Counted from the first letter of the stretch, positions 1,616-6,805 are shown. The stretch: 42,090 nucleotides of DNA from an uncultured Holophagaceae bacterium (GCA_903873655.1 CAIQPH010000126.1:1-42090); one strand, 5' to 3'. Numbers and translations: made by a program. The notes: generated by a model from the sequence alone, not told the origin.

Positions 1616-2812
1616 ATGCCCTTCCTCATTGCCCTCATCCTCGTCCTCCTGGTCCAGTGGCTCCACCTGCGGCTGCTGCGCCTGGAGCTTCCCGAGCGGG
1701 CCCAGCGGGTCCTCCCCTGGATCCTCGGCCTGATCCATCTGCCCCTGGTGGCCTTCGCAGGGATGCGCTTGGCCGGGCTGAGCCTGCCTGGCGGATTGCC
1801 CCTGCTGCGCGCACTGGCTCGGTCAGGGTTCTACTTCCAGGCCTTCACCGTGATGCATCTGGTCATCGCCATGCTGGCCGAGGGGGCCTGGCGGATTTTC
1901 CATCGCGACCTACCGCCGGTCACCGAATCAGACACCGACGAGGAAACGGCCACAGACCCGGGGCGCCGCGCCTTCCTCCGCACGGCGGCCCTGGTCAGCA
2001 CGGGAGGAGCGGCGGCCTTCGGGCTGGGCGGCGCAAGGGCGGCCTTCGGGGATCCGGAGATCCTCCGCCGGACGCTGGCCTTCCCGGATCTTCCGCCGGG
2101 CCTGGACGGCCTCCGCCTCGCCCAGCTGAGCGACCTGCACGCGGGCCCCCTCGTCGGCCCGGCCACGCTGCGACGCTGGCGGCAATTGACCGAACGGGAG
2201 CAGCCGGAGCTCCTCCTGATCACGGGCGACCTGGTGGACAGCCGACCGGAGGAGCTGCAGCCCCTGCTCGAGGCATTCCAGGGCTTCCTTCCGCCACTGG
2301 GTCGCTTCGCCGTGCTGGGCAACCACGACTACTTCGATGATCCCCGCCCCATCTGGCGGGATCTTGAGCGGGAGGGAATCCGGTGCCTGGAGAACAGGAC
2401 GGCCCTGATCGCCAGGAACGGCAGCACGCTGGCGCTCATGGGACTGCAGGACCCCATGGCCCGCAACGGGCGGTTCCGCCGCCTGGTTTTCGGACCTGGG
2501 CCCAGGCCTGCGGAGGCTGCCCGGGACCTGCCCGCCGAAGCCTTCCGGATCTGCCTGAACCACCGCCCCAGCGAATGGGAGCAGGCCCTGGCCGCCGGGG
2601 CCCGGCTCACGCTTTCGGGCCACACCCACGGCGGCCAGATCAACCCCATCCCGGGCTTCAACAGCGCCCGGATCCTGGGCCCGCGAACGCATGGCCTCTA
2701 CCGCGAGGGAGAGGCCATGCTCTACGTGAACCGCGGCCTCGGCGTGGTGGGCCTGCCCATCCGGGTCGCGGCCGCTCCGGAAATTGCGGTTCTGACCCTG
2801 AAGCTCGGCTAG
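1616..2812 (+). CDS. Membrane-anchored metallophosphoesterase (YkuE/YaeI-like)
   Basis: N-terminal hydrophobic helices; motifs LSDLHAGP, GDLVDS, LGNHDYF, LSGHTHGGQ typical of calcineurin-like phosphoesterases. Confidence 0.85.
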   Translation: MPFLIALILVLLVQWLHLRLLRLELPERAQRVLPWILGLIHLPLVAFAGMRLAGLSLPGGLPLLRALARSGFYFQAFTVMHLVIAMLAEGAWRIFHRDLPPVTESDTDEETATDPGRRAFLRTAALVSTGGAAAFGLGGARAAFGDPEILRRTLAFPDLPPGLDGLRLAQLSDLHAGPLVGPATLRRWRQLTEREQPELLLITGDLVDSRPEELQPLLEAFQGFLPPLGRFAVLGNHDYFDDPRPIWRDLEREGIRCLENRTALIARNGSTLALMGLQDPMARNGRFRRLVFGPGPRPAEAARDLPAEAFRICLNHRPSEWEQALAAGARLTLSGHTHGGQINPIPGFNSARILGPRTHGLYREGEAMLYVNRGLGVVGLPIRVAAAPEIAVLTLKLG

Positions 2813-3063
2813 GGCGTCTGCTGTTTCAACGCAGCCTGGACTTCTGCCAGGACCTTGGTCGCGGCTTCCGGAACGGCTTCCGGCGGCGTGAGCGCTCTCC
2901 TTGCAAGCCCTGGCAGGGCCCTCATGCCGCGCAGGAACCCGGCGCAGGCTTTGCACAAGAGCAGATGGATCCATATGCCGATCCTGCGGCTCATGGGCAG
3001 CACGCCTTCAGTGTATTCGGTGAGCTCGATCTGAACGTCTCGGCAGGAGGGCATGAATGTCAT
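2809..3063 (-). CDS. Small zinc-finger anti-sigma factor (ZAS-like), soluble
   Basis: 84 aa; HLLLCKAC = HX3CX2C motif; start overlaps the stop of the upstream ECF sigma gene; no transmembrane segment visible. Confidence 0.65.
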   Translation of the reverse strand: MTFMPSCRDVQIELTEYTEGVLPMSRRIGIWIHLLLCKACAGFLRGMRALPGLARRALTPPEAVPEAATKVLAEVQAALKQQTP

Positions 3064-3677
3064 GGGCGACCTCCAAGGACAAAGGTTCGGAGGCGAGCCT
3101 GGAGCACCGTCCGGGAACGGTGGAGCCGCTGACGCACCGTGCCGGGCGTCAGCTGCAGGTGCCGGGCGATATCCTCGGTCTCCCAGTCTTCCAGGTCTTT
3201 CAGGACAAACACGATCCGGTGTGAATCCGGCAACTCGTCAAGAGCCCTGGTCAGGCATTCCCTCAGTTCCTGCCGCTCGACGAGGTTGTGCGCCCGGGCT
3301 TCCTCCTGCCACTCAGGCAGGTGGGCGGGCACCAGGTGGTGACCTCGCTCATCAAAAGGCCCAAGGGCCAGCGGCTCGGGACGTTCCATGTCGTGAATCC
3401 GAACACGGCTCCGCCGCATCATCAGCGCCGCATTGAGGCACACCTTGTAGCCCCAGCTGCTGAAGCGGCTGCGGCCCTCGAACCTGGGGAGATCGCGATG
3501 AATGCTCATGAGGGCGTCCTGCAACGCATCCTGGGTATCGGCATCGTTGCCCAGGATGCGATTGATGCCGTTGTGGAAGAGGGCGAGGTGGGGCCGGACC
3601 AGCGCACCAAAGGCGTCCGAGTCGCCTGTGGCGGCGCGCTGGATCAGTTCCGCTTCAGTGGGAGGAATTTCTTTCAT
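3060..3677 (-). CDS. ECF-type RNA polymerase sigma factor
   Basis: Sigma-70 region 2 (DALQDALMSIHRDLPRFEGRSRFSSWGYKVCLNAAL) and region 4 (LDELPDSHRIVFVLKDLEDWETEDIARHLQLTPGTVRQRLHRSR). Confidence 0.9.
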   Translation of the reverse strand: MKEIPPTEAELIQRAATGDSDAFGALVRPHLALFHNGINRILGNDADTQDALQDALMSIHRDLPRFEGRSRFSSWGYKVCLNAALMMRRSRVRIHDMERPEPLALGPFDERGHHLVPAHLPEWQEEARAHNLVERQELRECLTRALDELPDSHRIVFVLKDLEDWETEDIARHLQLTPGTVRQRLHRSRTVLQARLRTFVLGGRP

Positions 3678-3718
3678 GCCGTTGTCAGTGTCAGCGGCGG
3701 TTTGTGGAGAGGCAAGCC

Positions 3719-4348
3719 CTACTTCTTGGCAGTGCCCGGGGACTTCTTGGTGGTCGCGACCGGCTTGGCGGACGGCGTCGGTTCCACGAAAAACCCCACC
3801 AGCAGCAGGTCCAGTTCCACGGGACGCTTCAGGCTGAGCTTGGCCGCCACACTGTCGGCGCCGAGACCGAAATCCAGGCGGTCCAGAGGCAGCGTCGCCC
3901 GGTAGGACCAGGTGCGCGTCCCCGCCCCATTCAGGCCCTCTGCTGTGACGAAAGGCAGTTCGAGCTCCCTGCTTACGCCATGCATGGTGAGGGTCCCCCG
4001 GACCACCACCCGGTCGCCTTCTTTCCGCACGTTCTGCGAGGTAAAGGTGATTTTGGGGTACTTGGCGATGTCAAAAAAATCCGCTGAGCGGAGATGCTCA
4101 TCGCGGGCCTGGTTGGCGGTGTTGATGGACTTGGTGTCGATGTCGATCTGGACTTTGGCGCTTTCAGGTGCGTCGGGAGCCCCCTGGATGTCGGCCTTGT
4201 ACCGCATGAATCTGCCCGGGACGTCGAAAAGCAGCGTGGAGGCCTTGAAGCCCAGCACCGTATGGTTGTCGTCCACACGGAAGACCCGAGTCTGGGCCGC
4301 CAAGGGAAGGGCCAGCAGCAGGACTGGCATGAGGGAACGAAGAACCAT
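3719..4348 (-). CDS. YceI family periplasmic protein
   Basis: Signal peptide MVLRSLMPVLLLALPLAAQ; YceI-like FRVDDNHTVLGFKAS...FDIAKYPKITFTSQNV...GTLTMHGVSRELELPF. Start chosen at the ATG before the signal peptide; 4366 (ATGA overlap) is an alternative. Confidence 0.85.
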   Translation of the reverse strand: MVLRSLMPVLLLALPLAAQTRVFRVDDNHTVLGFKASTLLFDVPGRFMRYKADIQGAPDAPESAKVQIDIDTKSINTANQARDEHLRSADFFDIAKYPKITFTSQNVRKEGDRVVVRGTLTMHGVSRELELPFVTAEGLNGAGTRTWSYRATLPLDRLDFGLGADSVAAKLSLKRPVELDLLLVGFFVEPTPSAKPVATTKKSPGTAKK

Positions 4349-4362
4349 GGGAGCCTCGTGGG

Positions 4363-5145
4363 TCATTGAGTAGATCGGAAACCGGCGATGGCGCCGTCGC
4401 ATCGAAGGTCGTGCAGAAGGCTCAGCACAGGGACAAGATCAGGCACATTCAGGACGGCAGCGGCCTCTGCCAGAGGCCTGGTTTGGGCCTGCACCAGCAG
4501 CGCCGAGGTAGCCGGTGTCAGCTCCATCAGTCGGACTTCGCCTTCTTCATCACGAAAGGCCAGGAGGTGGGCAGGGCGAGCCTCTGGAATCGGGGCTTCC
4601 AGGCTGCTGTGGTGCACGGCATGAGTGTAGGACACGACTTGGGTGGCTGGATCGAGCACCACGAGATCCTCCGGTCCGGGATTGACATGGAGGTCCTCGG
4701 GCCTAGCCGAATCCGGGAAGCGTGCAACCAGGACCTCCAGCAGCTCGGCATGGGCGAGCTCAAGGAGGAAGGGCCAGCGAACCTGGCCCCAGCGAGTGGC
4801 TGCCAGCCAACCCAGGAAGGCCGGCGCGATGTCGCGGTAATGCCCGCTCCGCACCAGGCGTGCATCCAGGAACCCCTGCACGCAGTCGCTCCAAGAGTCG
4901 GCCCCTTCCAGGAGCGACTTCAGCACCGGGAACATGGTCTCCAGGGGTTCAAGAAGACTCATTCTGGCCAGTTCGCGGTAGGTCATCATCGCCGGACCCT
5001 GGTCCCGGAAGGACCGCTGGTCTGCGCCTGGAAGTTCCTGGTGCAGGGCCACACGACCCGGATCCGCTTCGATGGCTGCCTCATCGGCATCCAGCACCAG
5101 CGCGGCCATGGCACGCTGGAGCCTGAGAGTCCTGGTATCAGGCAT
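4363..5145 (-). CDS. DUF2063 / HvfC-BufC-like partner protein of a MNIO enzyme
   Basis: Immediately follows and overlaps the DUF692 gene (ATGCCTGA overlap); DUF2063-like pattern LQRAMAALVLDADEA...Y..ELARMSLLEPLETMFPVLKSLLEG. Start MPDTRTLRLQ at 5145. Confidence 0.7.
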   Translation of the reverse strand: MPDTRTLRLQRAMAALVLDADEAAIEADPGRVALHQELPGADQRSFRDQGPAMMTYRELARMSLLEPLETMFPVLKSLLEGADSWSDCVQGFLDARLVRSGHYRDIAPAFLGWLAATRWGQVRWPFLLELAHAELLEVLVARFPDSARPEDLHVNPGPEDLVVLDPATQVVSYTHAVHHSSLEAPIPEARPAHLLAFRDEEGEVRLMELTPATSALLVQAQTRPLAEAAAVLNVPDLVPVLSLLHDLRCDGAIAGFRSTQ

Positions 5146-5989
5146 GGTGGACTTCGCTGAGCTCCAGAGCTGCTTCATAAGCGCGCTGGATACGGGCCCG
5201 CTCGGCCAGGAGCTCGTCGAACTCAGGTATGTGGTTGTCCCGCTCGAGAAGCACCGGCACGGGCCGCCCAAGGCGAGCGAGGGTCCACTGCATCAAGTCG
5301 ATTACGGGATCAATGACGTCGGCACCGTGTGTGTCGACGGTGAGATCGCCGAATGATTTGTGCCCGGCGATATGGAGCTGCGCCACACGATAGAGCGGCA
5401 TGGCGGACAGCCATTCCTTCGGATCGAAGCCGAAGTTGAGGGCGTTGACATAGACGTTGTTCACATCGAGCAGCCACCCCGCGTCCGCGCCCTCCAGCAC
5501 CGCGGTGATGAAATCGGCCTCATCCATTTCGGCGGCCCCGAGTTCCGCGTAGTAGCTGATGTTCTCAAGCAGCAGCGGAACGGGAAGCCGGGACTGCAGG
5601 TCTCTCACCCGCGTGATCGTGTGCCTTACAGCTTCCCGCGTGAAGGGAAGAGGCAGCAGCTCGTGCAGGCAGCTCCCGTCCACGGACGTGAAGCAGAGGT
5701 GCTCCGAATGCCATGGCGTTCCGGTGCGGAGGAGGAACTCGCCAAGATCGCGAAGATAATCCTCGTCCCAGGGATCAAACCCGCCCACGGATAGGGTCAG
5801 TCCATGGGTAAGGACGGGGTCCCGATCGAGGATGGCAGAGGCCATCCGGTGGTGGAGCCCACCATCCCCGATGATGTTCTCAGGACAGGTCTCCCAGAAG
5901 GGCACGCCATGGGCCTCCATCTGTGCGACCCGCTCAAGGTGCGGACGGCGCAACCCGAGCCCTACACCCGTGAACTTCTCCTGAACCAT
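5138..5989 (-). CDS. DUF692 / MNIO family enzyme (HvfB/BufB-like)
   Basis: GVGLGLRRPHLERV, WHSEHLCFT, LLLENISYYAE, GWLLDVNNVYVNALN, QLHIAGH, DTHGADV, LLERDNHIPEFDELLAE are characteristic of this TIM-barrel family. Confidence 0.9.
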   Translation of the reverse strand: MVQEKFTGVGLGLRRPHLERVAQMEAHGVPFWETCPENIIGDGGLHHRMASAILDRDPVLTHGLTLSVGGFDPWDEDYLRDLGEFLLRTGTPWHSEHLCFTSVDGSCLHELLPLPFTREAVRHTITRVRDLQSRLPVPLLLENISYYAELGAAEMDEADFITAVLEGADAGWLLDVNNVYVNALNFGFDPKEWLSAMPLYRVAQLHIAGHKSFGDLTVDTHGADVIDPVIDLMQWTLARLGRPVPVLLERDNHIPEFDELLAERARIQRAYEAALELSEVHHA

Positions 5990-6007
5990 GGCCTTCCCCC
6001 CACCTGG

Positions 6008-6355
6008 CTACTTCTTCTCTGCGTCGCTGGGGGCGGCCTTCTTGTCTTTCCCACAGGAGGCTTCCTTCTTGTCCTTCCCGCAGGAGGCTTCCTTCTTGAC
6101 CTTCTTCGTATCCTTGCTTCCGCAGGAGCCCTTGCCGCAGGAACCTTCCTTGGCCTTGCCTTCCTTCGCCTTGGCGGGGGCCTTGCCATCGCCCTTCGGG
6201 TCCTTGGATTCCTGGGCTCCGCAGCTTCCGGCCATGGTAAAGGCGGCTTCGGAACTGAATGGCTCGACGGCCGTGGCACCGACCAAAGTGGAGCCTCCGG
6301 CCACGAGGGAGCCTGCCGCGAAAAGGGTGGCGGCACCGATGAGTTTGGTGATCAT
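6008..6355 (-). CDS. HvfA/bufferin-like secreted RiPP precursor peptide, Lys-rich with five SCG motifs
   Basis: 115 aa from ATG at 6355 with GGAGG ribosome-binding site; N-terminal signal-like MITKLIGAATLFAAGSLVAGGSTLVGATA; Cys at residues 45,73,78,92,101, all within [GA]SCG; directly upstream of DUF692/DUF2063 genes. Confidence 0.75.
   Translation of the reverse strand: MITKLIGAATLFAAGSLVAGGSTLVGATAVEPFSSEAAFTMAGSCGAQESKDPKGDGKAPAKAKEGKAKEGSCGKGSCGSKDTKKVKKEASCGKDKKEASCGKDKKAAPSDAEKK
6041..6094 (-). repeat. Two tandem 27-nt units encoding KEASCGKDK inside the precursor gene
   Basis: cttgtctttcccacaggaggcttcctt followed by cttgtccttcccgcaggaggcttcctt; two differences, both synonymous. Confidence 0.9.
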
Positions 6356-6367
6356 GAATCCTCCGTG

Positions 6368-6403
6368 CGGCCAGGGCCGCAGCAGGGGCCGTCTTGCGGC
6401 CCC
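6368..6403 (-). promoter_or_regulatory. Two GC-rich hairpins in the predicted 5' leader of the precursor mRNA
   Basis: GCGGCC-AG-GGCCGC (6367-6380) and GGGGCCG-TCTTG-CGGCCCC (6385-6403), just upstream of the GGAGG site. Confidence 0.45.
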
Positions 6404-6535
6404 GTTGTGGGAACAGGACAAGGTCAACCCGGGCTGCCCGGTCTGAGCCAAAGTGCTGCTGTTAACCCTTTGGTGCGCCTGCGTCAGCCATTGTGACAAA
6501 TTTTTATTTCTATGCCAAGAGTACGAAAAAGCAGC

Positions 6536-6805
6536 TCAGCCCTTGATCAGCACCCAGAAACCCACCGCAATGAAGGCCGTCCCCGCGACCCACTTGATGG
6601 CGGCTTCGGGAATGTATTTGAAGAGTACGCCCCCCACGGTCACTCCCAAGGCCGTGGCGCAGACCAGGGCCACGCTGGCCGCCAGGAATACAGTCCAGAT
6701 CTGGCCGCTGCGAACCGTGGCAGTCACCGCCGCGAGCTGGGTCTTGTCTCCGATCTCGGCGAGAAAAATGGTTCCGAAGGTGGTCCAGAAGAGCGATCGG
6801 TTCAT
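6536..6805 (-). CDS. TMEM165/GDT1 (UPF0016) family half-size cation transporter
   Basis: 89 aa; AEIGDKTQLAAVTATV signature (E-x-G-D-K-T) and hydrophobic helices. Confidence 0.85.
   Translation of the reverse strand: MNRSLFWTTFGTIFLAEIGDKTQLAAVTATVRSGQIWTVFLAASVALVCATALGVTVGGVLFKYIPEAAIKWVAGTAFIAVGFWVLIKG

Follow-up and report, generated by a model that had tools for sequence, protein, structure and literature searches.

The contig CAIQPH010000126.1 (assembly GCA_903873655.1), a stretch of 42,090 nucleotides analysed here as a whole and referred to as the window, comes from an uncultured Geothrix relative (Holophagaceae, Acidobacteriota). It carries an operon of six minus-strand genes (6355-2809) that encode, in order, a cysteine-containing precursor peptide, an MNIO enzyme, its partner protein, a YceI-family lipocalin, an extracytoplasmic function (ECF) sigma factor and an anti-sigma factor. 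The genes had been described as running head to tail in an initial annotation of the sequence, and the open reading frames were verified at the following coordinates.

6472..6498, minus strand: predicted ECF promoter, TGTCACA-N15-GCACC, about 145 bp 5' of the precursor ATG
6385..6403, minus strand: leader hairpin H1, GGGGCCG-CAAGA-CGGCCCC, stem conserved in relatives compared with shuffles
6366..6381, minus strand: leader hairpin H2, TGCGGC-CCTG-GCCGCA, 1 nt 5' of the Shine-Dalgarno (SD) sequence GGAGG (6360-6364)
6008..6355, minus strand: precursor peptide, 115 amino acids, Sec signal and Lys-rich core, five [GA]SCG cysteines, no Pfam or NCBIfam family
5138..5989, minus strand: MNIO (DUF692, HvfB/BufB-like), 283 amino acids, PF05114 2.4e-89
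4363..5145, minus strand: partner of PME type 1 (PME1; DUF2063 plus NGO1945-type RiPP recognition element (RRE), RiPP being ribosomally synthesized and post-translationally modified peptide; HvfC-like), 260 amino acids, PF09836 and PF22106
3719..4348, minus strand: YceI-family lipocalin with signal peptide, 209 amino acids, PF04264 1.6e-35
3060..3677, minus strand: ECF sigma factor, 205 amino acids, Sigma70_r2 and r4_2
2809..3063, minus strand: small soluble zinc-type anti-sigma factor (HxxxCxxC), 84 amino acids, antisigmaE 1.3e-10

The genes are tightly packed, with successive intergenic distances of 18, -8, 14, 41 and -4 nt. The MNIO gene and the partner gene (start 5145) overlap by 8 nt, and the sigma and anti-sigma genes by 4 nt (3060-3063). 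The partner gene stops at 4363 and the YceI ATG lies at 4348, a further in-frame ATG upstream overlapping the partner stop as ATGA, and the YceI stop (3719) is separated from the sigma ATG (3677) by the 41-nt gap. A simple scan for terminators between the operon genes gave a few weak and unconvincing matches, located within genes of the minus strand (positions 4092-4080 and 4100-4085 in YceI; 3809-3795). No other MNIO gene is present in the genome. The initial annotation had seen no DoxX gene nearby, and none was found in the window; a DoxX gene concealed within the operon or window was considered and rejected for want of any match, and the single DoxX match of the genome lies on a different contig.

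Translation confirmed a peptide with a Sec-type signal whose five cysteines all lie within [GA]SCG (AGSCG, EGSCG, KGSCG, EASCG and EASCG), and no family was matched in Pfam or NCBIfam profile searches. The EGKCG (Lys-Cys) repeats are absent from this precursor, and mixtures of KCG and SCG occur only in relatives. Among 277 core cysteines counted in 48 homologous precursors, 247 are followed by Gly, and the contexts SCG, GCG and KCG account for 146, 36 and 29, respectively. The cores are Lys-rich and flexible, with 3-12 cysteines across relatives. In genus g6, DHKCG/DGKCG repeats occur together with DASCGKGSCG, and DHKCGKDMKDGKCG and DASCGKGSCG are found within a single peptide; because both types are combined there, SCG and KCG form one continuum, in agreement with the earlier proposal that the SCG core is a variant of EGKCG. 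The five-residue cysteine spacing of the conserved DGSCGKGSCG pair also equals that of HvfA EGKCGEGKCG. The best conserved part of the precursor is the signal segment 1-18 (76% mean identity, against 42% for residues 26-48), in which L11, F12 and A14 are invariant; the signal peptide was assigned by eye and conservation, not by a signal-peptide predictor. In HvfA and bufferin, the signal peptide is reported to serve also as leader (PMC13419390), and the strong conservation of the segment fits such a second role, so that the Sec signal likely acts as a leader here as well. No match to DUF2282 (Buf1) was obtained in Pfam for the precursor, and its five SCG cysteines do not fit the 6 or 12 of Buf2, as judged without the Buf2 signature itself. 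A search of the accessible literature found neither a published SCG-type core nor published work on Geothrix MNIOs. In genus g9 (L045, L049, L079), the MNIO precursors contain RCGRRCA repeats in place of SCG. The enzymes there have RL where the RR pair is expected, and these loci lack the GTCACA promoter and retain the leader hairpins.

Searches with hidden Markov models agreed with the DUF692 and DUF2063 assignments made earlier. The MNIO matched PF05114 with 299.5 bits, PRK05409/HvfB with 277.7 bits and the structure PDB 3bww at 1.7e-54. DUF2063 (42.7 bits) and NGO1945_C (42.5 bits) in the partner both exceeded the Pfam cut-off, and the HvfC model was matched at 1.2e-28 (100.6 bits). The MNIO retains D251, the catalytic Asp corresponding to FonB D249, along with the RR pair (R14, R15) and invariant metal-ligand-type H/D/E/N residues. 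The residue after D251 is Asn252; its FonB counterpart, Phe250, is conserved among Lys-Cys MNIOs and touches Lys and Gly of the substrate in an AlphaFold model (PMC13097082). This position is occupied by Asn, Ser, His, Gln or Thr across the family enzymes and by Asn or Gln in Myxococcota loci with EGSCG repeats, and Buf2-like Acidobacteriota enzymes carry an EWD motif followed by A, D, E, G or K. At the level of sequence, the pairing of an SCG core with an Asn-for-Phe contact is a correlation and partly lineage-bound; it is limited by the g6 enzymes, which face KCG-rich substrates and likewise have Asn or Thr. In most of the Myxococcota loci L123-L127, EGSCG-repeat precursors lie 5' of the genes for MNIO and partner; no YceI or sigma homologues were found in this group.

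Named relatives put the host among Geothrix and other Holophagaceae, and 51 related loci were compared with the window. An MNIO is present in 46 of the 77 genomes of the order, and the MNIO and partner genes directly follow the precursor gene in nearly every relative. Seventeen loci, the window among them, show the full six-gene order; it recurs in 16 further genomes of the family, and one of the loci (L050) belongs to another genus. This recurrence, like the Gly that follows most core cysteines, speaks against a chance arrangement. The initial annotation had called the gene composition unusual, which holds against the published MNIO landscape, but the arrangement is conserved across a genus. 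The same six genes are present in the culturable Geothrix limicola Red804 (L096/L073). Variants comprise sigma and anti-sigma genes without YceI (L044, L047, L080), YceI without sigma (L037, L040, L078), the precursor-MNIO-partner set alone (e.g. L031), and loci such as L063 and L066, in which the partner gene is followed by one for a secreted FKBP isomerase. In loci of the Geothrix fuzhouensis type, the 156-amino-acid product encoded downstream of the partner was considered as DoxX and rejected, as it is an FKBP isomerase. In a further variant, a radical SAM/SPASM gene lies between the precursor and MNIO genes, with YceI downstream. Its two loci, L043 (genome G070) and L046 (G007, Geothrix fermentans), contain an SCG-type precursor, the radical SAM/SPASM gene, MNIO, partner and YceI, with a thioredoxin-like gene in L043, and possibly encode a two-enzyme RiPP. 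Genome G035 carries a YceI-sigma-anti-sigma triplet of a second lineage (L133, contig C27) with no adjacent MNIO, and its MNIO operon (L031) is without all three genes.

The sigma factor contains Sigma70_r2 and Sigma70_r4_2 domains (regions 2 and 4). The anti-sigma factor has an HxxxCxxC zinc motif and matches NCBIfam antisigmaE (1.3e-10), the Pfam zf-HC2 score of 18.0 bits lying just below the cut-off of 22.2; the families first assigned to both proteins and to YceI were thus recovered. The promoter pattern YGTCACA-N15-GCACC has a single exact match in the 3.47-Mb genome, before the operon. Matches with one mismatch equalled those of a reversed-pattern control, and additional sigma targets in the genome were rejected on this ground. 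Among 46 leaders scanned, some of them incomplete, the pattern was located 110-155 bp 5' of the precursor ATG in 30, or in 37 with relaxed matching, and it precedes the precursor in 19 of the 20 loci with a local sigma gene (17 strict, 2 relaxed). Across 47 genomes of the genus, 26 of the 40 strict sites fall at an MNIO operon, as counted from coordinates, and the remainder do not exceed the reversed-pattern number. Outside the family, none of the loci examined in other Acidobacteriota and in Myxococcota carried the promoter. Since the conserved site is single in the genome, the sigma factor probably serves its own operon alone, with essentially one target promoter, which supports the autoregulation predicted in the initial annotation. 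In the tree, the sigma factors encoded in such operons group in a single clade (support 98/90). Next to it stands a sigma factor of G069 (61% identity), whose Buf2-like, DoxX-bearing MNIO operon (L051) lies elsewhere and has the same promoter. A more frequent sigma paralogue (about 50%) has as its partner an anti-sigma factor of ChrR type with a cupin domain; this paralogue may act at the loci that lack a local sigma gene.

In almost every relative, the hairpins H1 and H2 lie in tandem 5' of the ribosome site. An H1 stem of at least 5 bp is formed in 80% of 45 relatives and 13% of shuffles, an H2 stem of at least 4 bp in 96% and 21%, and both together in 78% and 2.7% of dinucleotide shuffles; these are counts and not probabilities, because the relatives are not independent. 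Many changes are double-sided, with H1 arm pairs GGGGCCGC/GCGGCCCC, GGGTCC/GGACCC, GAGCCGC/GCGGCTC and GGGGTCGC/GCGACCCC, and H2 arm pairs GCGGC/GCCGC, GGCGGA/TCCGCC and GCGGG/CCCGC. The hairpin pattern occurs once in the genome, no Rfam family scored above gathering, and, outside the family, the loci examined in other Acidobacteriota and in Myxococcota showed no such hairpins apart from two single SD-proximal stems. The hairpins are candidates for a role in mRNA stability or translation control. An H1-H2 switch masking the SD sequence was dropped, as it is formed in about ten relatives and absent in the window and most others.

The YceI protein is secreted, with a signal peptide, and matches PF04264 with 123 bits (1.6e-35); among solved structures it matches isoprenoid-binding lipocalins (E. 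coli 1y0g, 1.3e-18). In other bacteria, the YceI-fold lipocalin BcnA limits lipid peroxidation and Neisseria YceI carries ubiquinone-8 (PMC9113575). By analogy, a protective role next to metal capture may be inferred here. Two YceI lineages accompany MNIO operons in the tree. YceI is not mentioned in the main text of the published MNIO landscape paper, and no paper treating both YceI and DUF692 was found in a literature search.

The six genes probably form a self-contained metallophore operon of the captophorin type (5-thiooxazole, HvfA/oxazolin-like), of a Ser-Cys-Gly subtype, inducible by metal or oxidative stress at the envelope. Gene content, conservation, the unique promoter, the leader hairpins and the active-site residues are seen in the sequence itself; the modification, the metal, the inducer and the roles of YceI and the hairpins are inferred. 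The zinc-type anti-sigma factor would hold the ECF sigma factor in the cytoplasm until metal or oxidant stress at its Cys/His site releases it. The freed sigma factor would transcribe essentially its own operon promoter only, which would set up a positive loop with a surge of precursor. The RRE of the partner would read the Sec signal as a leader, and the MNIO, an iron enzyme, would turn the SCG cysteines into copper-binding 5-thiooxazoles by a four-electron oxidation (-4 Da each). The modified peptide, exported to the periplasm, would sequester a soft metal, most likely Cu(I), and the co-induced YceI lipocalin would shield the envelope from metal-driven radicals. Captophorins bind copper (PMC13097082), and ECF control of such operons under metal or oxidant stress has precedents (PMC3511200, PMC7907618). 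Ser before Cys is a plausible substrate, since FonBC accepts Ala, Arg and Thr where Lys normally precedes Cys (PMC13097082). More tentatively, the operon may represent a distinct SCG subclass among MNIO metallophores whose enzyme has a specificity of its own (Asn for Phe), arranged as a one-promoter cassette with a dedicated sigma factor, a two-hairpin leader and a quinone-type YceI, in which metal capture and lipid-radical defence act as a unit.

Several observations weigh against the captophorin reading. The NCBIfam equivalog cut-offs were not reached for HvfB (277.7 of 360 bits), BufB (258.8 of 310) or HvfC (100.6 of 142). KGSCG motifs (one here, 32 in the family) carry a basic residue at position 1, and FonB rejects Arg at this position (PMC13097082); such sites may therefore stay unmodified, and not every Cys need be modified. 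YceI is missing from three loci that retain the sigma and anti-sigma genes. The sigma module and the MNIO do not always occur together: thirteen loci without a local sigma gene still have the strict promoter, so that a different sigma factor can serve the site. The sub-threshold scores, together with the Asn252 contact in this clade and its Asn or Gln counterparts in Myxococcota, would also suit an MNIO that installs another modification on Ser-Cys-Gly (e.g. an oxazolone-thioamide, a Ser/Cys crosslink or thiol excision), the product then being no captophorin and perhaps having another metal or redox role. We regard this as unlikely, because the catalytic Asp and the PME1 partner are conserved, every characterised MNIO-PME1 pair installs 5-thiooxazole, and the FonB variants F250A and F250D still formed it (PMC13097082).

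Somewhat less probable again is that YceI, sigma and anti-sigma constitute an independent stress module that merely lies downstream, the sigma factor having no special tie to the peptide. The detached G035 triplet speaks for this view, but its sigma factor belongs to a different clade, and the single clade of operon-borne sigma factors, the promoter before the precursor in all but one of the sigma-bearing loci and its uniqueness in the genome argue against it. The Lys-rich flexible core, the variable Cys number and the possibly poor KGSCG substrates would be compatible with a plain metal-thiolate peptide that binds metal like a small metallothionein, with most SCG cysteines unmodified and the MNIO active at few sites. 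This is improbable given that MNIO and partner adjoin the precursor in nearly every relative and that the motif geometry equals that of HvfA.

The hvfABCX oxazolin/captophorin operon of Haemophilus influenzae and fontiphorin share a Sec-signal precursor with C-terminal Cys-Gly repeats at equal spacing, an MNIO and a DUF2063-RRE partner (PMC13419390, PMC13097082), but here the core is SCG and not EGKCG, Asn replaces Phe at the substrate contact, DoxX (frequent in captophorin clusters, though not a strict criterion) is lacking, YceI, sigma and anti-sigma lie within the operon, and the scores fall under the equivalog cut-offs. The H. influenzae hvf-type cluster is likewise controlled by an ECF sigma factor, RpoE2, with a small cytoplasmic anti-sigma factor, and in this RpoE2-HrsE system the four-gene DoxX cluster is induced under HOCl (PMC7907618). 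In Caulobacter, the bufferin operon CC3254-3257 also combines precursor, MNIO and DUF2063 genes with an adjacent ECF sigma/anti-sigma pair, sigF-nrsF, which has a very small regulon, and the MNIO operon is induced by chromium and cadmium (PMC3511200). It differs in its DUF2282 precursor, the presence of DoxX and the six-transmembrane NrsF in a separate operon, whereas the anti-sigma factor here is soluble, of zinc type and encoded in the same operon. The BcnA/YceI-LcoA system shares a secreted YceI-fold protein (PMC9113575); here no cytochrome b561 gene is present in the operon, and the linkage is to an MNIO peptide instead. The Buf2-type (Cys-Lys) MNIO clusters of other Acidobacteriota belong to the same phylum, and L051, of the same family, shares the promoter motif, but they have CKGKGGCK precursors, the EWD active-site motif and, in L051, DoxX. 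Sigma control of MNIO operons is thus already known from Caulobacter and H. influenzae, and what is new is the SCG subtype, the in-operon sigma factor with a soluble anti-sigma factor and a single promoter, YceI as a partner and the hairpin-bearing RNA leader. If the captophorin reading is true, thiooxazole metallophores extend to Acidobacteriota with a new core motif. The pairing of SCG/KCG substrates with Asn/Phe enzymes makes enzyme specificity testable, a sigma factor seemingly serving its own operon only offers a clean reporter of what MNIO peptides respond to, and the YceI link provides a testable peptide partner other than DoxX.

Before distant MNIO genes (L141, L144, L145, L148, L158, L081), membrane proteins with Cys/Gly-rich SSCGG tails, TIGR04222-like by eye, were observed. 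Immediately upstream of the operon, the window (6536-6805, minus strand) encodes an 89-amino-acid half of a GDT1/UPF0016 cation transporter; this half-gene also lies near the operon in 18 other loci, which probably reflects plain synteny.

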